A stretch of DNA of 51,673 nucleotides from Phreatobacter sp. (GTDB lineage Bacteria > Pseudomonadota > Alphaproteobacteria > Rhizobiales > Phreatobacteraceae). Made by a program: the position numbers and the translations under genes. The notes below the pieces were generated by a model. That model searched no databases. It was not told where the DNA came from and saw only the letters and a list, made by a program, of their open reading frames with translations. This document shows positions 853-51,673 of this stretch, piece after piece (position 1 is the first letter of the stretch; every line of letters begins with the position of its first letter). The stretch is from positions 1 through 51,673 of the forward strand of contig NZ_JALHMP010000030.1 in assembly GCF_022843985.1 (NCBI RefSeq). The letters run 5' to 3'.

Positions 853-2283
853 ATGTCCAACAACCTCAAGTTCTACATCAACGGCGAATGGGTCGCCCCG
901 ACCGGCGGCGCGACCCTCGACGTGATCGATCCCTCGACCGAAGAGCCCTTCACGCAGATCGCGCTCGGCACCGAGGCCGATGTCGACAAGGCGGTGAAGG
1001 CCGCCCGCGAGGCGTTCAAGACCTTCTCGCAGACCACCAAGGCCGAGCGGCTGGCGCTGATGCGCAAGCTTCTCGAGGTCTACAACAAGCGCTTCGCGGA
1101 CGTCGCCGACGCCCTCTCCCGCGAAATGGGCGCGCCGAAGAAGCTCGCCCACACCGCCCAGGCCGGCATGGGCACGGCCCACCTGTCGAAGATGATCGAG
1201 ACGCTCGAGACCTTCGCATTCGAGGAGTTGCGCGGCACGACCCTGATCGCAAAGGAGCCGATCGGCGTCGTCGGCATGATCACGCCATGGAACTGGCCGA
1301 TCAACCAGATCATGTGCAAGGTCGCCCCGGCGCTCGCCGCCGGCTGCACGATGGTGCTGAAGCCGAGCGAGATCGCGCCGATCAACGCCATCATCTTCGC
1401 CGAGATCATGCACGAGGCCGGCGTGCCGAAGGGCGTGTTCAACCTCGTCAACGGCGACGGCCCGACGGTGGGCGAGGCGATCGCCCGCCATCCCGGCGTC
1501 GACATGGTGTCCTTCACCGGCTCCACCCGCGCCGGCGTGCTGGTGGCCAAGGCCGCCGCCGACACGGTCAAGCGCGTTCACCAGGAGCTCGGCGGCAAGT
1601 CGGCCAACATCATCCTGCCGGATGCGGACATCGCCAGGGCGGTGAAGCTCGGCGTCGAGGGCATGATGCGCAATTCGGGTCAGTCCTGTAACGCGCCGAC
1701 GCGCATGTTCGTCCCTGCCGCCCGGCACGACGAGGCCAAACAGGTCGCCAAGGAGACCGCCGAGAAGCTGAAGGTCGGTCCGGCATCGGCAGAGGACAGC
1801 TGGATGGGCCCGGTGGTCAGCGAGGTGCAGTTCAACAAGATCCAGAAGCTGATCGAGAGCGGCATCAAGGAGGGCGCCGAGGTCGTCACCGGCGGCACCG
1901 GTCGTCCGGAGGGGCTCAATCGCGGCTACTATGTGCGCCCGACAGTCTTCGCCGGCGTCACCGACGACATGACCATTGCGAAGGAAGAAATCTTCGGGCC
2001 CGTCCTGTCGATCCTGCCTTACGACAGCGAGGCCGAGATCGTCGAGCGCGCCAACAACACGCCCTACGGCCTCGCCTCCTATGTCCAGTCGGGATCCCTG
2101 GACAAGGCCCGCAAGCTCGCGGCTCAGATGCGCTCGGGCAACGTTTACATCAACTACCCCGCCTGGGACGCCGGGGCGCCCTTCGGCGGCTACAAGCAGT
2201 CCGGCAACGGCCGCGAATATGCCGAGTTCGGCCTCGAGGAGTTCCTCGAGATCAAGGGCACGGTCGGCTACGGCGCCGCCTGA
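853..2283 (+). CDS. Aldehyde dehydrogenase, NAD(P)-dependent
   Basis: 476 residues, the usual length of the ALDH superfamily; it oxidises an aldehyde to the acid with NAD(P)+ in the cytoplasm. Visible hallmarks are the cofactor-fold segment GMITPWNWP, the general base Glu245 in QELGGKS and the nucleophile Cys279 in GQSCNAP, 34 residues apart as in active enzymes. IFGPV and PFGGYKQSG are also present. The ATG at 853 follows a strong GGAGGA ribosome site. The gene appears monocistronic: about 400 bp of non-coding DNA upstream and a terminator downstream. The substrate cannot be read from sequence. Confidence 0.95.
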   Translation: MSNNLKFYINGEWVAPTGGATLDVIDPSTEEPFTQIALGTEADVDKAVKAAREAFKTFSQTTKAERLALMRKLLEVYNKRFADVADALSREMGAPKKLAHTAQAGMGTAHLSKMIETLETFAFEELRGTTLIAKEPIGVVGMITPWNWPINQIMCKVAPALAAGCTMVLKPSEIAPINAIIFAEIMHEAGVPKGVFNLVNGDGPTVGEAIARHPGVDMVSFTGSTRAGVLVAKAAADTVKRVHQELGGKSANIILPDADIARAVKLGVEGMMRNSGQSCNAPTRMFVPAARHDEAKQVAKETAEKLKVGPASAEDSWMGPVVSEVQFNKIQKLIESGIKEGAEVVTGGTGRPEGLNRGYYVRPTVFAGVTDDMTIAKEEIFGPVLSILPYDSEAEIVERANNTPYGLASYVQSGSLDKARKLAAQMRSGNVYINYPAWDAGAPFGGYKQSGNGREYAEFGLEEFLEIKGTVGYGAA

Positions 2284-2311
2284 TCGGCGCAAACCCTCCC
2301 TGACGGCGAAG

Positions 2312-2334
2312 GGCGGCCCATGGGCCGCCTTTTT
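2312..2334 (+). terminator. Rho-independent terminator of the aldehyde dehydrogenase
   Basis: GGCGGCCCA followed directly by TGGGCCGCC is an 18-bp perfect palindrome that can fold as a 7-bp G/C stem with a CATG loop, followed by TTTTT. It starts about 30 nt after the stop codon. Confidence 0.9.
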
Positions 2335-2435
2335 CGTTGGTGGTCTTGGCTGCTCTGTCGCTGGGGTCCTCTGCCTCGGCCGCGGAGGGCTGGTCCGAGC
2401 AACGGCGCCACTGCCGTTGCGAAACCCAAGCAACC

Positions 2436-2453
2436 GTGTCACTCAACTGTCAT
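2436..2453 (+). promoter_or_regulatory. Pho box (PhoB operator) upstream of phnD
   Basis: GTGTCAC-TCAA-CTGTCAT: two 7-mers at an 11-bp period. The second matches the PhoB half-site CTGTCAT 7/7 and the first 5/7. It lies 44 bp before the phnD ATG, a normal place for a PhoB-activated promoter. This suggests the operon is induced by phosphate starvation. Confidence 0.7.
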
Positions 2454-2497
2454 GCAATTCATGTTTCTCGCCGGGACACCTTGATCAGGAGCCATTT

Positions 2498-3451
2498 ATG
2501 GGAAGTCTGTTCCGAGCTGCCGCCCTCATCGCGACCATGACGCTCAGCATGCTTTCGAGCGCCTTCGCCCTCGATTCCCGTTACCGCGACACCGATGGTG
2601 ATCTGGTCGCTGACATTCCGGCCGCCGCAGACCAGGTCGATCCCGCGGTGCTGATCTTCGCCTACACCCCCGTCGAGGATCCCTCGGTCTATGCGCGCGT
2701 CTGGGATTCCTTCCTGCAGCACATGGCACGGGTCACGGGCAAGCGCGTCCAGTTCTTCCCGGTGCAGTCCAATGCGGCGCAGATCGAGGCGTTGCGCGCC
2801 GGTCGGCTCCACGTGGCCGGCTTCAACACGGGCTCGACGCCGCTCGCCGTCAACTGCGCGGGTTTCCGGCCCATGTTCATCATGGCCGCCAATGACGGCG
2901 ATTTCGGCTACCGGATGCAGTTCATCACGCATCCCGGATCCGGTGTTGAGAAGATGGAGGACATCCGGGGACGGCGCGTCGCCTTCACCTCCGAGACCTC
3001 GAATTCCGGCTACAAGGCGCCGTCGGCGCTGTTGCGCGACACCTACAGGCTTGAGGCCAACCGCGACTTCACGCCGGTCTTCTCCGGCCGGCACGACAAT
3101 TCGGTGCTCGGCGTCGCCAACCGCGACTATCCGGTCGCCGCCATTGCGAGCGAAGTCGCGCGGCGCATGGTCGCACGCAACGTCGTCCGCGCCGATGCAT
3201 TCCGGGTGATCTACGAGTCGGACCGCTTCCCGACCACAGCCTACGGGGTGGCGCACAACCTGCGCGCCGACCTGCAGGACAAGATCCGCGAAGCTTTCGC
3301 CACCTTCCAGTGGGCCGGCACCGCTCTTGCGGAGGAGTTCGGCAAGACCATTCCGGCCGGTGAGCGTTTCATGCCGATCACCTATCGCGACGCCTGGAAA
3401 GTCGTGCGCGACGTCGACGCTTCCGTCGGCGTACAGTACACCTGCCGCTGA
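2498..3451 (+). CDS. phnD: Phosphonate/phosphate ABC transporter, periplasmic binding protein
   Basis: 317 residues with a signal peptide (positively charged start, hydrophobic stretch, cleavage near residue 24 after FA-L). The body has the PhnD-family features QIEALRAGRLHVAGFNTG, the SETSNSGYKAPS ligand loop and VQYTCR at the end. PhnD-type proteins capture phosphonates, phosphite or phosphate esters; in rhizobia the related PhoD serves high-affinity phosphate uptake. A short Asp-rich loop (DTDGDLVAD) near the mature N-terminus looks like a calcium-type loop. First gene of phnD-phnC-phnE-phnE, preceded by a Pho box and followed by a strong hairpin. No C-P lyase genes are present, so uptake only. 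Confidence 0.92.
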   Translation: MGSLFRAAALIATMTLSMLSSAFALDSRYRDTDGDLVADIPAAADQVDPAVLIFAYTPVEDPSVYARVWDSFLQHMARVTGKRVQFFPVQSNAAQIEALRAGRLHVAGFNTGSTPLAVNCAGFRPMFIMAANDGDFGYRMQFITHPGSGVEKMEDIRGRRVAFTSETSNSGYKAPSALLRDTYRLEANRDFTPVFSGRHDNSVLGVANRDYPVAAIASEVARRMVARNVVRADAFRVIYESDRFPTTAYGVAHNLRADLQDKIREAFATFQWAGTALAEEFGKTIPAGERFMPITYRDAWKVVRDVDASVGVQYTCR

Positions 3452-10934: not shown

Positions 10935-13900
10935 ATGACATCCGCGTTCCCCAGCCTGTCGACGATCCTGTCGGAGCCGGACGTCGCGCGCCTCATGGCG
11001 GAACCTGGCCCGTGGTGGCTGTGGACCGCCGATGCGAGCCGCCTCGTCGTCGCCAACACCACCGGTGCCCGCGCCATGGGCGCCAGCGGCCTCGCCGCCG
11101 CCCTCGACCGCGACTATCCCGGGACCCATGCCTTCGCCGCCCAGATCGGGCGGCTCGCGCCAACCCTGCCGGCCGACGGAACGCCGCGCAGCGAGCGCCT
11201 GCGCATCGCCGGACGGTTCGGGTCGGAGAGTGTCGTCGCCGAGGCCTGCCGCATCAGGGCCGGCGCGCTCAGCCTCATCGCGGTACGGTTGCCCTCCCTG
11301 CGGCGCGAAACGTCCCGCGAGGCGGCCCTCGGCTTCATCGCGACATTGCGGATTCCCGCCCTCGCCTTCGACCGCGCCGGCGTGCCGCTGGCGGCGAGCG
11401 ACGCCGCCTCCGCTCTGGCGGCGACGCCGCTGCGGGACCTCGTCGGACCCGTCGCCGAATCGATCTTCGACAGTGTCGGCGACACGGGCCGCGCCGCGGT
11501 GGACCTCGTAAACGGGCCGATGACGGTCGTCGCGCTGCCGGAAGCAGGGCTTATCGTCGCCCTGCTCGCCCCCCTCGCCAAGAGCCTCCCCGAAGCCGGT
11601 CTGCGGTTGGTTGCCGGGGGCGTCGACCCGGCCGCAGCGCCCGACACGGATGCCGCAGCGGAGGAGGCTTCCCCCATCGCCGACCTCGCAGCCGGCGAGG
11701 CGGTCGACGACACCGCACAGGCGGCACCGGTCGCGGCGCCGGCAATGCCCCTTGCCGAGGCGGAAGAGATCGCGACGCTCCCGGCGGCGACCAAATCCGA
11801 GGCGCCGGTTCCTGCCCCCATCGCCGCCATGGACCCGGCTTCTTCCGTTCGTACCGTGGCGGGCGGCCATGACGAGGAAACGGTTGACGGCGCGCAGGAC
11901 GCGGCACCCGAGACGGTCTCCCGGGAGATTCTGGCGCAAACGGGTCCGGACCAGCCCGCCAGCGCGGCAATGCCGGAGGTTGAGCCGGCCGAGACGGTCG
12001 TCGCCGTTCCCGCCGTGCCGCAGCGGTTCTCCTGGCGGATGGATGGGGACTATCGCTTTCACACCATCGCACCGGAGGAGGTCGCCGGCCTCGCCGGTGA
12101 GACTCTCGACGCGGCAACGGCCCGCTTGGGCATCGACCCCAGTGGTGTCCTGACGACCGCCGTGACCGCCCGCAGGCCGTTCAGCGGCGTCGCTGCCCTC
12201 TGGCCGCTGGGCCGGGCGGGGCGCAGGCTGGCGGTGACGCTCGCCGCCTTCCCGGCGCTGCGCGACGGCGCCTTCCAGGGCTATTCCGGCTTCGGACTCG
12301 TGGTCGAGGAAGCCTCACCGGTCGCTCCGCCGTCGGAAACCGAGACCCTGTCGCCGGACGCGCCGGTCTCCGTCACCGCGGCCGCGGAAACCGCCGTATC
12401 GGCGGGCGAGGTCCCGCCAGCGAACGCCCTGAACGAGGCCGTCGCAACCGTGGACGCGGATCCGCAGGACGTGTCGGAGCCTTCCGACGCGGTCACCACC
12501 GAGGACGATTCCGCTGTCACGGCTCCGATCGCCGCAGCGGCAGCGGACGACGCCATCGTGGCAGGCGAGGCAGATGACACCGCCGGTGCGACGGAAGCCC
12601 CGGCATTCGCCCGGGCGGAAGAGGCTGCGGCCCTTTCCGGCGCGCGCGCGGGCGAGGATGCCGATCCGGTGGCCGCGGACGCTGAGCCGCTGGACCGGTC
12701 GGAGCCTGCCGACCCGAGCACCGCCGACGACGATTCTGCGGTCACGGCTCCGATCGCCGCTGCGACAGCGGACGATGCCATCGTCGCAGGCGAGGCAGAT
12801 GACGCCGCCGGCGCGGCGGAAGCCCCGGACCTCGCCGGGGCGGAAGACGACACGGCCCTGTCCGGCGCGCCTGCGGAGGAGGATGCCGATCCGGTGGCAG
12901 CGACGGTTGCGACCCTGCCCGACGTCACGGCTTCCGAGCCGACGGCGACCGGCAGCGGTGAAGAGCTGCCCGAGGAGGCCCAGTCAGGCGACCCCACCCC
13001 CGATGCCGATGCGACGCGGCCTGTGGCTGAGACGCGTCCGGTCCTGACTGTCCATACCAATCCGCCCAATGTCGTCGCGCTCCGGACCTCCGTCGGACAG
13101 GACAGCAAGCGCCCGCAATTGTCGCCGGGCGAACGCAACGCCTTCCGCGAGATCGCCCGCGCCCTCGGCGCCCGCACCAGCGACCCGATCCCCGCGGACG
13201 AGGATGGCACGCGCCCGCCCGAAGCCCCGCCGCCGCCCGCCGAACAGGCGGCCCCCGGCGCGCAGCTCCCGCCGCCAGTGGCTCCGGTTGCAACGGAACC
13301 GCTCGACAGCAGGGACAGTCTACCGGAGACGCGATCCCCCGACACGGCGGGAGAAGCGCCGGCCCGCGCCTTCGTCGATTCGGGAACACCTTTCGGTCCG
13401 CTGCCGAGCGCCTTTGGCGCCGATCCCGCGGCAAGCGGGCCCGACCAGGGGGCCGATCTCGCCGCGCTCCTCGACAAGGTGCCGACCGGCCTCATCATCC
13501 ACCGCGGCAATGCGGTGCTCTTCGCCAACCGCACGCTGCTCGACTGGGTCGGCTTCCCCGATGCGGCGGCGCTGGAGGAGGCGGGCGGTGTCTCGCGCCT
13601 CTTCGCCGGCGGGCCGGACGACGGCAGTGAGTCGGTGTCGCTGACGACGGTGGAGGGCAGTGCGCTCCCGGTCGAGGCGCATCTGTCGCGGGTCACCTGG
13701 GCGGGGCAGTCGGCCTTCCTGTTCACTTTGACCCGGGCACCGGCGGGAGACGTCGCCAGCGACCATGAATCGACGACGCTGAGCGAGTTGCGCGGCCGTC
13801 TCGAGGAGGTCGAGCAGATCCTCGATACGGCGACCGACGGCATTGTCATTGTCACCGCCGATGGCGCGATCGAGAGCATGAACCGTTCCGCAGAAGCCCT

Positions 13901-47378: not shown

Positions 47379-47463
47379 GCCCAGATGGCGGAATTGGTAG
47401 ACGCACTGCTTTCAGGTAGCAGCGCCGCGAGGCGTGGAGGTTCGAGTCCTCTTCTGGGCACCA
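47379..47463 (+). tRNA. tRNA-Leu (CAG anticodon)
   Basis: 85 nt including encoded CCA. Acceptor GCCCAGA pairs with TCTGGGC, the anticodon stem CTGCT/AGCAG encloses TTCAGGT (anticodon CAG), a long variable arm follows, and the T-arm holds GTTCGAGTC. Discriminator A, as expected for leucine. An integrase gene starts 86 bp downstream, so this tRNA is the integration site of the island. Confidence 0.97.
47439..47463 (+). other. Presumed left attachment site (3' end of tRNA-Leu)
   Basis: Tyrosine integrases next to a tRNA normally cross over in its T-arm and 3' end, restoring the tRNA. The last 25 bp of this tRNA are the likely attL core. I found no second copy inside the window, so the right end of the element lies beyond it. 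Confidence 0.5.
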
Positions 47464-47549
47464 TTCCCTTCTTAAGTCCTTGATCGGACGAAAGAAGCAG
47501 CCGAAACAACGAGTTGGCTTCCCGCGACAGGTACACGCGGGAGGCACAC

Positions 47550-49163
47550 ATGGTAATCCGAATGCCCCGTCCATGGTCCCATCCCAAGACGGGGATGTTC
47601 TACTTCCGGGCTCGCATCCCCGCAGACATCAGCAACAAGGTCCTCGGTGAGTCGCTCACCGTGGTCATCGCTGATGGCGTGGTGTCGAAGACCAAGCTCG
47701 GGCCCGGCCCAGTGAAGCTCTCCCTGCACACCAAGGACTCTCGCGTGGCGAAAGTGCGCCATGCTTCGGTGGAGGCCCTCATCCAGAAGCGGTGGGATGC
47801 TGTTCGCCAAGGTCCTGCTGAACTGTCCCACAAGCAGCTCCGTGCCCTCGCCGGGGAATGGCACCGGGCGCTGGTCAGGCAGCATGAGGACGAGCCGGGG
47901 AGCGAGGTCGGCTGGGATGCCACCCGGGACGTGCTCATCGACGCGCTTCGGTACCTCTACCCCGACAGCGATGGCTCCGAGGCACCTGCGCATGACCCAG
48001 ACCGGGGGTACAAGCTGTTGGCTCGGGTGATCGATCTCGATGCGTTTCTCGATGAGCGGTCGCTGGTCGTCACGGAAGCCTCCCGGCTGGCGCTCCTGCA
48101 CCAGATGGCCTTGGCGCATGTCAAAGCCGCAACGACCCTCATCAAGCGTGCCGAGGGCGACTACAGCCGCGACCGAGAAGCCGACCGCTATCCAGACTTC
48201 GAGCAGGCCAAGCCGAGTGTGGCCACCCGGTCAGCGGTTCCGTTCAAGACGCTGATCGAGGGCTGGGCCAAGGAGAAGCAGCCGAAGCCGGCCACCCTCC
48301 AGCTCTACACCACGTACATCACCCGCTTCTCCGAGTTCGTCGGGCACGACGATGCCAGCCGTGTCACGAAGAAAGACGTGGTGGGGTGGAAGCAGCGCCT
48401 GCTCGATGCCGGGGATGCCCCGAAGACGATCAACGGGGCCAAATTGGCCGCTGTGAAGGCGGTGTTCTCATGGGCCGTCGAGAACGACCTCGTCAGCGAC
48501 AATCCCGGAGCCCGTGTCTCGGTTGTCAGGAAAGCCAAGCCGAACGACCGGATGCAAGCGTTCACCCCTGAGGAAGCCAGGGTCATTCTCACGGCTTCGG
48601 CCAAGGAGAAAAGTCCCGTTCGTCGGTGGGTACCCCTCCTCTGTGCCCAGTCGGGAGCCCGGGTGGCGGAAGTCTGTCAGCTCCGCAAGGAGGACATCCG
48701 GGAAGAGAAGGGCATCTGGTTCATTCGGATCACCGGCGAGGCTGGGTCCATCAAGAACGCGAACTCCGAGCGAGACGTGCCGTTGCACCCTGATGTGATC
48801 GCCGCCGGCTTCCTCGACTTCGTGAAGGCGAAGCCCGAAGGCCCCCTCTTCTACGACCCGAAGAGACGGCGGGAGGGTTCCACCAGGCCCCCGGCCAAGA
48901 TCATTGCCAAGAACCTCGCCTCGTGGGTCCACACGCTCGGGCTCAAGGTCGGTCGGGAGCATCGGAAAGACCCGAACCACGCATGGCGGCACTACTTCAA
49001 GACGGTCGCCCGTGCGCATGGGGTGCAGGACAGCGTGTCCGACCGGATCACGGGACATGCCGCTGCGAACGAGGGTCAGAACTACGGCGGCCTGTGGCTG
49101 GAGACGCTGCATGAGGCCGTGGCCAAGCTGCCCCTACCCGGAATATCTGCAGAGCAGATGTGA
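47550..49163 (+). CDS. Tyrosine recombinase (island integrase)
   Basis: 537 residues from the ATG at 47550 (GGGAGG 5 nt upstream); an in-frame TTG at 47514 is less likely. The N-terminus is of the RPWSHPKTGMFYFRARIPAD type found in many proteobacterial island integrases. A SAM-like core-binding domain lies at about 230-330, and the catalytic domain follows with Arg in SGARVAEVCQL, His-x-x-Arg in HAWRHYFK, GH in ITGHAAAN and a likely nucleophile Tyr in QNYGGLW. It should integrate and excise the island at the tRNA-Leu. Codon use is less GC-extreme than in the genes to the left. Confidence 0.93.
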   Translation: MVIRMPRPWSHPKTGMFYFRARIPADISNKVLGESLTVVIADGVVSKTKLGPGPVKLSLHTKDSRVAKVRHASVEALIQKRWDAVRQGPAELSHKQLRALAGEWHRALVRQHEDEPGSEVGWDATRDVLIDALRYLYPDSDGSEAPAHDPDRGYKLLARVIDLDAFLDERSLVVTEASRLALLHQMALAHVKAATTLIKRAEGDYSRDREADRYPDFEQAKPSVATRSAVPFKTLIEGWAKEKQPKPATLQLYTTYITRFSEFVGHDDASRVTKKDVVGWKQRLLDAGDAPKTINGAKLAAVKAVFSWAVENDLVSDNPGARVSVVRKAKPNDRMQAFTPEEARVILTASAKEKSPVRRWVPLLCAQSGARVAEVCQLRKEDIREEKGIWFIRITGEAGSIKNANSERDVPLHPDVIAAGFLDFVKAKPEGPLFYDPKRRREGSTRPPAKIIAKNLASWVHTLGLKVGREHRKDPNHAWRHYFKTVARAHGVQDSVSDRITGHAAANEGQNYGGLWLETLHEAVAKLPLPGISAEQM

Positions 49164-49187: not shown

Positions 49188-50099
49188 TCAGGGTTTCCCC
49201 CCACCGGGGGAGGCCCCTCGCCGCAGTGCTTGAAGCTGTGAACGGATTGCATCCCGCTGCTTTCCGCAATGAGCCTCGCGATGGTGGGCAGGGCAGAGGC
49301 ACGCAACATTCTCTTCGATGTCCGGGCCACCTTCGGCCAAGGGGACGATATGGTGGACCTCGCAGTAGGCTGTTTCATCGTCCATGAGGAACGGCAGCAC
49401 CGTGCAACCCGGCAACTCGCAGCGGTTCTTGGCTCGATCCAGCGCGTAAGCCTTCACAATCTCGGCACGCTGGTAGATGCGAACGGCTGCGACGCGCGTT
49501 GACGGCCCGGCCGGCCGCCGGGACGCGTATTCATCGTAGAGCCTCCGCAACTCTGCGGTCGAAGTCGTTCTGGCAAGATGGCGTGCAACTTCATCGGACC
49601 GTTCCAACGCCTCCTCTGGAACACTGACACGCAGTTCCAGCGGAGCAGCGGCCTCCCATACTGCGGCAAGATGAGCAGCCATCGCTGCCGGTACGAGGTA
49701 CGTGGTCTTGGAGAGAAACCGAAGGTTGGGGAGGTCCCGTAACACCGGATCACTCTTCAGGAGTTCAGCCGGTAACACTCCGCCCGATGGAGCAACAGCG
49801 TCGAGCCGCAGCGAGGCTCTCATCTCATCGACCGCTCCTCGCGCATCCCCGCCTCTCCAGAACGGCTTCGCGTCCTCACTCTCAGGCCTCAGTCGAGGGC
49901 GCTCGATGACGGTTGCGGATGCGATGATGCCTGCTGGGCTGCGCTTCTTGCCTGCCGCCCGCCATAGAAACACCCTGTCGCCAACGGCCATCTCCCTCGC
50001 ATGATGGCTGACGTACCACAGGACGGGGTGTGGACTTGTCGCCATATAACCGTCGATGTCGAAGCTGTCCGGGTTCCCCTGAAAGATGAAGGTCCTCAC
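49188..50099 (-). CDS. EVE-domain HNH endonuclease, candidate modified-DNA restriction enzyme
   Basis: 303 residues from the GTG at 50099, which gives the expected EVE start VRTFIFQGNPDSFDIDGYM. The N-terminal EVE domain (about 1-135; WYVSHHAREMAVGDRVFLWR, then AGIIASATV) is a PUA-superfamily pocket that reads modified bases. The C-terminal HNH domain (about 225-285) has CELPGC, EVHHIVPLAEGG, EEN and CLCPAHHREAH: zinc cysteines and catalytic His/Asn intact. The architecture suggests cutting of DNA with modified cytosine, i.e. defence against phages with modified genomes; no methylase is next to it, consistent with a modification-dependent enzyme. Convergent with the integrase (24-bp gap), divergent from the serine recombinase. 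The much longer frame upstream is antisense noise. Confidence 0.85.
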   Translation of the reverse strand: MRTFIFQGNPDSFDIDGYMATSPHPVLWYVSHHAREMAVGDRVFLWRAAGKKRSPAGIIASATVIERPRLRPESEDAKPFWRGGDARGAVDEMRASLRLDAVAPSGGVLPAELLKSDPVLRDLPNLRFLSKTTYLVPAAMAAHLAAVWEAAAPLELRVSVPEEALERSDEVARHLARTTSTAELRRLYDEYASRRPAGPSTRVAAVRIYQRAEIVKAYALDRAKNRCELPGCTVLPFLMDDETAYCEVHHIVPLAEGGPDIEENVACLCPAHHREAHCGKQRDAIRSQLQALRRGASPGGGKP

Positions 50100-50207: not shown

Positions 50208-50888
50208 ATGGCTCAGGGCTTGTTCGTCGCGTACTACCGCGTCTCCACCGAGGATCAGGGTCGGTCGGGCCTTGGGCTCGAAGCCCAGCGTGCCAGTGTC
50301 CACCGTTTCCTCAGCGGCGGGGACTGGACCTTGGTCGGTGAGTTCACCGAGGTCGAGAGCGGTCGCAAGAACGACAGGCCGATGCTGGAGCAGGCGCTGC
50401 GGGCCTGCCGGGTACATCGGGCGACCCTCGTCATCTCGAAGCTGGACCGCCTGTCCCGCGATGCGCACTTCCTGTTCGGGCTGGAGAAGGCCGGGGTGGA
50501 GTTCGTCGCGGTGGACAACCCCCACGCCAACAGGCTGACCATCGGCATCATGGCCGTCATCGCAGACGAGGAGCGGAGGGTCATCTCGGAACGGACCAAG
50601 GCGGCCCTTGGGGCGGCTAAGGAGCGTGGTCGGAAGCTCGGTGGCTTCAGGGGCACCATCATCGCCCCGGAGACGCGGGAGAAGGCCCTGAGGGCCAAGA
50701 AGGCCAAGGCTGATGGACGTGCGTCCGACCTCGCTCCGGTGGTCGAGGAGGTCATGGCTTCCGGCCTGTCGTCGCTGCGGGAGATTGCTGCGGCACTCAA
50801 CGAACGGGGCATCCCCACGGCCACGGGTCGAGGGGCCTGGCAGGCAACGCAGGTGCGCCGTCTCATGGATGCCATGACCCGGGCCTGA
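50208..50888 (+). CDS. Serine recombinase, resolvase/invertase family
   Basis: 226 residues from the ATG at 50208; the longer frame from 50001 runs antisense into the EVE-HNH gene. Catalytic serine in YYRVSTEDQGRSG, then LEQALRACRVHRATLVISKL DRLSRDA (split here) and the E-helix IMAVIADEERRVISERTKAAL. A C-terminal helix-turn-helix (SLREIAAALNERGIP) binds DNA. Its size fits resolvases or invertases rather than large integrases. It may resolve, invert or mobilise part of the island; sites could be the palindromes just upstream of it. Confidence 0.92.
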   Translation: MAQGLFVAYYRVSTEDQGRSGLGLEAQRASVHRFLSGGDWTLVGEFTEVESGRKNDRPMLEQALRACRVHRATLVISKLDRLSRDAHFLFGLEKAGVEFVAVDNPHANRLTIGIMAVIADEERRVISERTKAALGAAKERGRKLGGFRGTIIAPETREKALRAKKAKADGRASDLAPVVEEVMASGLSSLREIAAALNERGIPTATGRGAWQATQVRRLMDAMTRA

Positions 50889-51063: not shown

Positions 51064-51579
51064 ATGCCGAACCCGCCGAAGCTCTCCTCGTCGCCCAAGA
51101 CTGACCTCATCGAGCTGGAAACCATCGTGGTGAACGACCGGTGGCAGGTGCGAGGCGCGTTGGACAGCGCCACGGTCAAGAGATACGCGGACGCGATGAG
51201 CGCCGGAGCACAGTTCCCGCCCATCGTCTTGGCCAGCCTCAACGGTGCCCTGATCCTCGTCTCTGGCTTCCACCGGTACCATGCGGCGAAGCTGGCCCGG
51301 CAGACTGCCCTCATGGCTGAGGTCCATCAGGCCAAGCCTGAGCGACTTCTCTGGCGGGCCGCGGCGGAGAACCTGGCACACGGGCTCCCAATGAAGGCTA
51401 AGGACCACCGAGGCGCGTTCCGGGCCTACGTGCAGTCGGGAATGCACCGTCTTCCCAACGGCAAGGTGAAAGCATCACGCACCATCGCTGAGGAGCTCAA
51501 CAACATCCGCAGCCATGCCACCATCCTCAACTGGATGCGGTCGGACTTTCCATCGGTGTCAATCGGCGTCCAAAGTTGA
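51064..51579 (+). pseudogene. ParB-like nuclease-domain protein, apparently cut by an IS element
   Basis: The frame codes 171 residues. ParB/Srx-like features are visible: LIELETIVVNDRWQVRGALD, PPIVLASLNGALILVSGFHR (the dispensable-for-binding GFHR box) and AENLAHGLPMKAKDHRGAFR. A helix-turn-helix region begins at about residue 135 (SRTIAEELNN, then ATILNWMRSD). From about base 51557 the sequence matches an insertion-sequence end with direct repeats, so the last seven or so residues are IS-derived and the true C-terminus is lost. Such free-standing ParB-like proteins are common in mobile elements; partition partner parA is not seen. Confidence 0.7.
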
Positions 51580-51673
51580 CCCCTTTTCGGCGTCCAAAGT
51601 TGACCCCCTTGCAGTCCGGCAGCGGACGCCCCGACGCAGCTGGTCGGGATTGCGCAGTCGGGGCGACCGCGGT
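51557..51673. mobile_element. Left end of an IS21-like insertion sequence (continues beyond the window)
   Basis: Starting with TGTCAAT, two 21-bp direct repeats (51563-51583 and 51587-51607, both containing GGCGTCCAAAGTTGACCCC) lie at a 24-bp period. Repeated terminal elements beginning TGT and carrying TTGACCC words are typical of IS21-family ends, where IstA binds. Transposase genes would lie to the right, outside the window. The last 65 bp show no gene. Confidence 0.55.
51563..51607. repeat. Two direct repeats at the IS end
   Basis: 21-bp identical units at a 24-bp spacing, each reading TCGGCGTCC then AAAGTTGACCCC. Presumed transposase-binding repeats of the IS terminus. Confidence 0.85.

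Follow-up and report, generated by a model that had tools for sequence, protein, structure and literature searches.

A compact EVE-HNH protein on a tRNA-Leu island of Phreatobacter sp. as a probable modification-dependent restriction endonuclease

The 51,673-nucleotide stretch of Phreatobacter sp. DNA analyzed here (the window, contig C30) encodes a compact protein that joins an N-terminal EVE domain to an HNH nuclease domain. We consider it probable that this protein belongs to the EVE-HNH class of modification-dependent (type IV) restriction endonucleases, acting as a single protein without need for NTP and by the mechanism proposed below. This reading is the best supported because EVE-HNH proteins are a published class with tested members, VcaM4I and TspA15I (PMC7897488). 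VcaM4I restricts a 5hmC phage (PMC7897488), as does TspA15I by the account given there. Bell et al. (2020) predict a variety of other type IV EVE-HNH enzymes with a role in modification-dependent restriction (PMC7641849), and PMC7897488, PMC7641849 and PMC12707154 place the class in print by 2020-2021. The window protein is a further member of this class; the class itself was already known. An earlier note had proposed a stand-alone modification-dependent restriction system. Restriction remains the best-supported reading, but enzymes of this class had been published before, a second restriction-type gene is probably present on the island, and the host has a cytosine-5 methylase gene.

The union of EVE and HNH described in that note is borne out by an intact ORF (Table 1) in which each domain exceeds its curated Pfam cut-off: PF01878 at residues 3-123 (E 2.2e-6, 28.1 bits against a cut-off of 23) and PF01844 at residues 244-277 (E 2e-6, 28.3 bits against 21.4). 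The mREase_IV models of PADLOC match the HNH part (residues 205-282, best E 2.8e-16), and its best phmmer match in the PDB is EcoKMcrA (6ghc_A; residues 192-283, E 1.9e-14), followed by ScoMcrA (1.3e-5) and then TagI (6.1e-5). For the EVE part, a five-row profile made of the window protein, one EVE remnant and three EVE regions from plasmid loci matches four solved EVE proteins in the PDB (E 1.4e-6, 2.2e-4, 3.3e-4 and 9.7e-4), three of which are also matched, more weakly, by a 12-row profile (best E 0.0011). By the EcoKMcrA and EVE-profile matches, the presence of both domains in one protein is beyond chance. The start of the EVE domain lines up with the start MRTWIFQGNP of an EVE-HNH fusion from Synechococcus sp. 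1G10 (L063). Upstream of the gene an AGAAAGG motif ends 8 bases before the GTG; no sigma-70-type promoter was found near the gene in a search with 0.2 hits expected by chance, which alphaproteobacterial-type promoters may escape.

Table 1. Coordinates of the EVE-HNH gene, its domains, its island and the methylase genes (window positions unless another contig is named).
Feature	Position	Strand	Basis or remark
tRNA-Leu(CAG), integration site	47379..47463	plus	last 19 bases (47445-47463) repeated on contig C50
Tyrosine integrase of the island	47514..49163	plus	PF00589 and PF20172 above cut-off
EVE-HNH gene, 303 aa	49188..50099	minus	GTG start (50099), stop at 49188-49190
HNH nuclease domain, EcoKMcrA-like (taken as residues 205-292)	49224..49487	minus	PF01844, PADLOC, 6ghc_A
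Linker (residues 151-204), candidate auto-inhibitory	49488..49649	minus	low-confidence predicted helices; VcaM4I analogy
EVE domain, candidate base-flipping sensor (taken as residues 1-150)	49650..50099	minus	PF01878, Foldseek, alignment
Small serine recombinase, divergent from the EVE-HNH gene	50208..50888	plus	PF00239, E 1.4e-28
ParB-like ORF (weak)	51064..51579	plus	ParB_N 15.7 bits, below cut-off 26.3
MmeI-like type IIG restriction-methylase frame, 868 aa	L085 (contig C50) 12230-14836		next to the 19-base repeat
Cytosine-5 methylase gene	L076 (contig C14) about 2101-3282	minus	PF00145; NCBIfam superfamily model above cut-off

The nuclease domain has its catalytic residues, as had been claimed: alignment and numbering put H249-H250, N264 and H273 in the HNH places, matching EcoKMcrA, with both the HH pair and the asparagine present. 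The zinc cysteines of the earlier note are correct when read as three cysteines and one histidine (C227, C232, C269 and H272, candidates by alignment), because C227 and C269 fall on cysteines of EcoKMcrA, C232 makes a CX4C pair, lying two residues off the second cysteine of the EcoKMcrA CX2C, and H272 takes the place of another EcoKMcrA cysteine.

The EVE pocket can be followed in part. Tryptophan 26 and tyrosine 82 of 2eve are the two residues earlier emphasized for this pocket; in VcaM4I the former is not conserved, and W82, the counterpart of the latter, stacks against the flipped base (PMC7897488). In a 19-row alignment W28 and W81 of the window protein lie on 2eve W26 and Y82, and in the alignment of the 12-row profile W81 sits two residues away from Y82. 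W28 is identical in 12/12 EVE rows and W81 in 11, with a gap in the remaining row; position 134, a tyrosine in the window protein, is tyrosine or phenylalanine in 11 of the 12 rows, again with one gap. No equivalent of Y130, the third pocket wall of VcaM4I, was found in the window protein, the residue-by-residue comparison with VcaM4I covering its HNH half. Of the aromatic cage named as a check on the earlier proposal, two aromatics are thus placed, one of them subject to a two-residue shift.

An AlphaFold model built from 12 sequences (mean pLDDT 75.5, pTM 0.52) scores mostly 78-97 by block in the EVE domain, with one block at 68, then 62-89 in the HNH domain and about 40-57 in the linker. 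Foldseek against the PDB ranks EcoKMcrA first and has EVE proteins among its top matches; THYN1 with 5mC DNA, PSPTO5229 and ScoMcrA also appear, as do many YTH domains, including YTH m6A readers. Full-length VcaM4I (6yex_A) is at rank 16, with 309 alignment columns, E 9.7e-6 and an rmsd of 23.2. The entries 6yex, 6yjb, 6ykf and 6ymg have this one VcaM4I sequence in common. The relative placement of the domains is unsupported because the rmsd exceeds 20 for the two-domain matches, and the position of EVE against HNH in the model is not reliable. Helices are predicted with low confidence at residues 162-177 and 181-193 of the linker, and pLDDT falls below 50 in 154-179 and 195-209. The linker helix of VcaM4I is 148-178 (PMC7897488).

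By analogy with VcaM4I, the protein most likely flips a modified cytosine and cuts nearby. The base turned out of the helix by the EVE domain would be 5hmC and/or 5mC, received in an aromatic pocket with W28 and W81 among its residues; the EcoKMcrA-like HNH domain would dimerize and cut DNA in the vicinity, and the helical linker may keep the nuclease inactive until modified DNA is bound. The gene came in on an integrase-driven island in tRNA-Leu that probably holds the MmeI-like type IIG gene as well. If both enzymes work, one may act against unmodified and the other against modified incoming DNA. The analysis shows the domains, the catalytic and pocket residues (by alignment) and the borders of the island, from which base flipping, the substrate, dimerization, auto-inhibition, a role in phage defence and this division of labour are inferred.

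It is also conceivable, though somewhat unlikely, that the protein is a modification-dependent nuclease whose EVE domain reads another base, such as a hypermodified thymine, a modified adenine or some other phage base. The domain begins with QGNP (or QSNP) in the window protein and in the EVE regions L032, L033, L034 and L037, whereas 4/4 solved EVE rows and the household EVE protein of the host (L058) have KSEP there; those four regions are a biased sample because they were found by their likeness to the window protein. Bell et al. suggest that other bases may be targets of some EVE domains (PMC7641849), the fold matches include YTH m6A readers, and the cytosine-5 methylase gene of the host argues against broad cutting at 5mC. 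Against this, VcaM4I and TspA15I act on modified cytosine (PMC7897488), and both pocket aromatics are kept in the 19-row alignment. Defence-type EVE domains start with QGNP, QSNP or QGNT where the solved household EVE proteins and L058 have KSEP. The QGNP type is also present in the EVE region of a DUF3578 protein and in an EVE protein encoded next to a DUF499 gene. It is tempting to speculate, although we regard the idea as doubtful, that QGNP-start defence-type EVE domains are a clade of sensors preferring another base than VcaM4I does; in this host the enzyme would then ignore the 5mC made by an active cytosine-5 methylase and read a phage-specific base.

The fresh island inferred earlier holds up well. 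The tRNA-Leu is followed by the tyrosine integrase, and GC content is 0.63-0.66 in the island part of the window but 0.68-0.74 in segments between 40000 and 47000. A copy of the last 19 bases of the tRNA lies on contig C50 at 11962-11980 (search E 0.011), where ARAGORN finds no tRNA. The C50 flank follows tRNA-Leu directly in 5/11 same-genus genomes (L087, L088, L089, L090 and L095; 84-96% identity over 96-108 bases), which are empty sites. Contigs C30 and C50 therefore hold the two ends of the insertion, given the 19-base copy and the flank seen at these sites; tandem insertions between these ends are possible. The remaining six genomes have other sequence directly after tRNA-Leu, and two of them (L092 and L096) have a more distant part of the C50 flank further downstream. 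The EVE-HNH gene is patchily spread, being present in one of the 12 genus genomes, the host itself; the other 11 give no match with the whole protein at E 0.001 or with the EVE part at E 0.01. At positions 51563-51610, near the contig end, two head-to-tail copies of a 24-base motif include the end of the ParB-like ORF; the repeat resembles what we take to be an IS end.

The EVE-HNH gene lies between the integrase and the serine recombinase, and HNH domains are known in homing enzymes. That its product is a nuclease serving homing or mobility of the island instead of defence is nevertheless very unlikely, and we rejected this identity: its HNH domain is closest to EcoKMcrA and the mREase_IV models, in several phyla the EVE reader is found with HNH partners from two Pfam families, and two EVE-HNH relatives (L065 and L069) adjoin defence-type genes.

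The statement that no methylase is nearby has to be limited to the window part of the island, where a Pfam scan found none among the four ORFs, because the C50 end carries an MmeI-like frame with a methylase domain. This 868-residue frame, which stops 97 bases short of the contig end, matches the N-terminal, spacer and methyltransferase domains of MmeI; a type IIG model of 1136 positions aligns with it as far as position 822, at 1022 bits. The island thus probably carries a second restriction-type gene with a methylase domain of its own. Beyond the frame, murA lies in the chromosome. Elsewhere in the host, one PF00145 gene was found, the cytosine-5 methylase on contig C14, close relatives of which occur in 2/12 genus genomes, host included. 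Searches of the frame next to it against Pfam, PADLOC and NCBIfam gave nothing within the limits used.

The coexistence of the EVE-HNH gene with this methylase raises a question of self-cutting and is the most interesting point of the locus. An enzyme that cuts any 5mC is expected to harm a host with a cytosine-5 methylase gene if both genes are active. The host would be spared if either gene is silent, or if the type of mark or the surrounding sequence makes a difference. In Pectobacterium, silencing of a methylation-dependent HNH gene resolves a comparable conflict (PMC8989522). With this precedent and the methylase gene in view, the EVE-HNH gene could be genuine and yet be silent in this host or have lost its activity, a reading we hold to be unlikely. 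It gains from a codon-position GC that is flatter than in the island neighbours (0.69/0.52/0.67 at positions 1-3, against 0.66/0.46/0.81 for the integrase, 0.68/0.50/0.85 for the recombinase and 0.63/0.46/0.81 for the ParB-like ORF) and from the broken state of some relatives (L066, L067/L037 and L073). It loses from a frame that is intact over 303 residues and from catalytic and pocket positions that are kept.

Relatives that share the EVE domain are scattered. Single-protein scans of genome contigs and viral contigs found none, and a search with a two-row EVE alignment found 13 loci in genome contigs and one, decayed, in viral contigs. By record titles, the 13 loci belong to Planctomycetota, Synechococcus, Bacillales, other Bacillota-type bacteria, several Pseudomonadota and one archaeon; the set is biased, as one of the two patterns used to fetch L060-L072 contains QGN. 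Six of them have an uninterrupted EVE-HNH frame (L060, L063, L064, L065, L068 and L069). L066 has an EVE-HNH frame with in-frame stops, L062 and L071 end at a contig end, L061 has a frame that stops 96 bases before the contig end and is without an HNH, and L067 is a short EVE remnant identical in sequence to L037. The remaining two, L070 (under the Pfam EVE cut-off) and L072 (no Pfam EVE match), are EVE-like frames without HNH. The decayed EVE-HNH or EVE remnants L066 and L037/L067 lie in Sporosarcina and a Magnetococcales genome. About 95-100 extra residues after EVE ('GVYNK...DPR') are common to L060, L061, L062, L063 and L064 and absent from the window protein.

The nuclease joined to EVE differs among these relatives: PF01844 in L063, L068, L069 and, weakly, L064 (20.5 bits, just under the Pfam cut-off of 21.4), and PF13391 in L060 and L065. 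The HNH of L065 matches VcaM4I at E 5.2e-33, and the HNH nearest to that of the window protein is the one in L063. One EVE type is thus joined to different nucleases, since these two HNH domains, one VcaM4I-like and one like that of the window protein, come from two Pfam families. Judged by these comparisons, sensor and cutter have been exchanged among EVE-HNH relatives.

When 10 chosen neighbour proteins from four loci were run against PADLOC, seven matched: one of three at L065 (Orf5, HEC-06 and mREase_IV models), all four at L069 (AbiLi, AbiLii, type III restriction and PDC-S37), both at the EVE-only L072, and 0/1 at L063. At L069 801-13538 the EVE-HNH gene sits within a cluster of AbiL-like, type III restriction-like and PDC-S37-like genes. 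At L063 8157-8837, about 2.7 kb from the EVE-HNH gene, is a serine-recombinase-like frame that resembles, by eye, the one in the window.

Broader searches return mostly the nuclease. Among 199 genomes drawn as relatives, four match at E <= 0.001, host included, the other three partially. In the class, 9/385 genomes match at 1e-8, host included, and all eight others by HNH only; in the phylum, 23/398 match at 1e-6, host included, the others by HNH except L037, which matches by the EVE start only. The match covers the HNH part only in 37 of the 40 plasmid records listed (49 have a match) and in 6/6 phage records with a match. These HNH-side matches were not counted as EVE-HNH proteins; their N-termini look different by eye in 17 frames and in the frames from the phylum search. 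The EVE part alone gives 10 matches besides the host in 297 genomes, all weak (E 3.6e-4 to 0.0085).

The window protein is a compact EVE-HNH protein in which an EVE sensor is coupled to an EcoKMcrA-type cutter, from a family whose sensors and cutters have been exchanged between unrelated bacteria. Provided that it is active, it could usefully serve as another case for learning what EVE domains read, and the presence of a cytosine-5 methylase gene in the same genome makes it a natural test for discrimination between phage and host marks by such enzymes. A literature search by title found no publication on EVE joined to an EcoKMcrA-type HNH, which does not prove that none exists.

Among named systems, VcaM4I shares the overall plan of an N-terminal EVE, a linker and a C-terminal HNH in one protein of about 300 residues, with a fold match that spans both domains (309 columns), and its W82 stands at the place of 2eve Y82, where the window protein has W81 in the 19-row alignment. 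The two differ in sequence, with no match at E up to 10 for the whole protein or the EVE profiles, and VcaM4I is linked to the window protein only by fold and through an intermediate HNH. The active site of VcaM4I comprises H224, N241, D250 and D254, with a serine before the first histidine (PMC7897488), whereas the HNH of the window protein is of the HH...N...H, EcoKMcrA type; 2eve W26, not kept in VcaM4I, is W28 in the window protein. EcoKMcrA (6ghc) is the closest solved HNH by sequence and the best Foldseek match, but its modified-cytosine sensor is the NEco domain, unrelated to the EVE of the window protein, and it has a cysteine in place of H272. A NEco-HNH identity was rejected, as the N-terminal half is EVE and the EcoKMcrA sequence match is confined to residues 192-283. 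SRA-HNH (TagI) and SBD-SRA-HNH (ScoMcrA) identities were rejected as well, TagI matching only residues 198-274 and ScoMcrA only 197-289; no SRA or sulfur-binding domain was listed among Pfam matches up to E 10, where filters drop most matches above 0.1. A type IV enzyme with a GIY-YIG nuclease is also described (PMC12923530). The type IV EVE-HNH enzymes predicted by Bell et al. share core architecture and predicted role with the window protein (PMC7641849). The Synechococcus sp. 1G10 fusion shares both the EVE and the HNH type with the window protein (54 identities over 149 aligned positions in the EVE part, 43 over 90 in the HNH part) but carries about 95 further residues between EVE and HNH; the window protein is the compact form.
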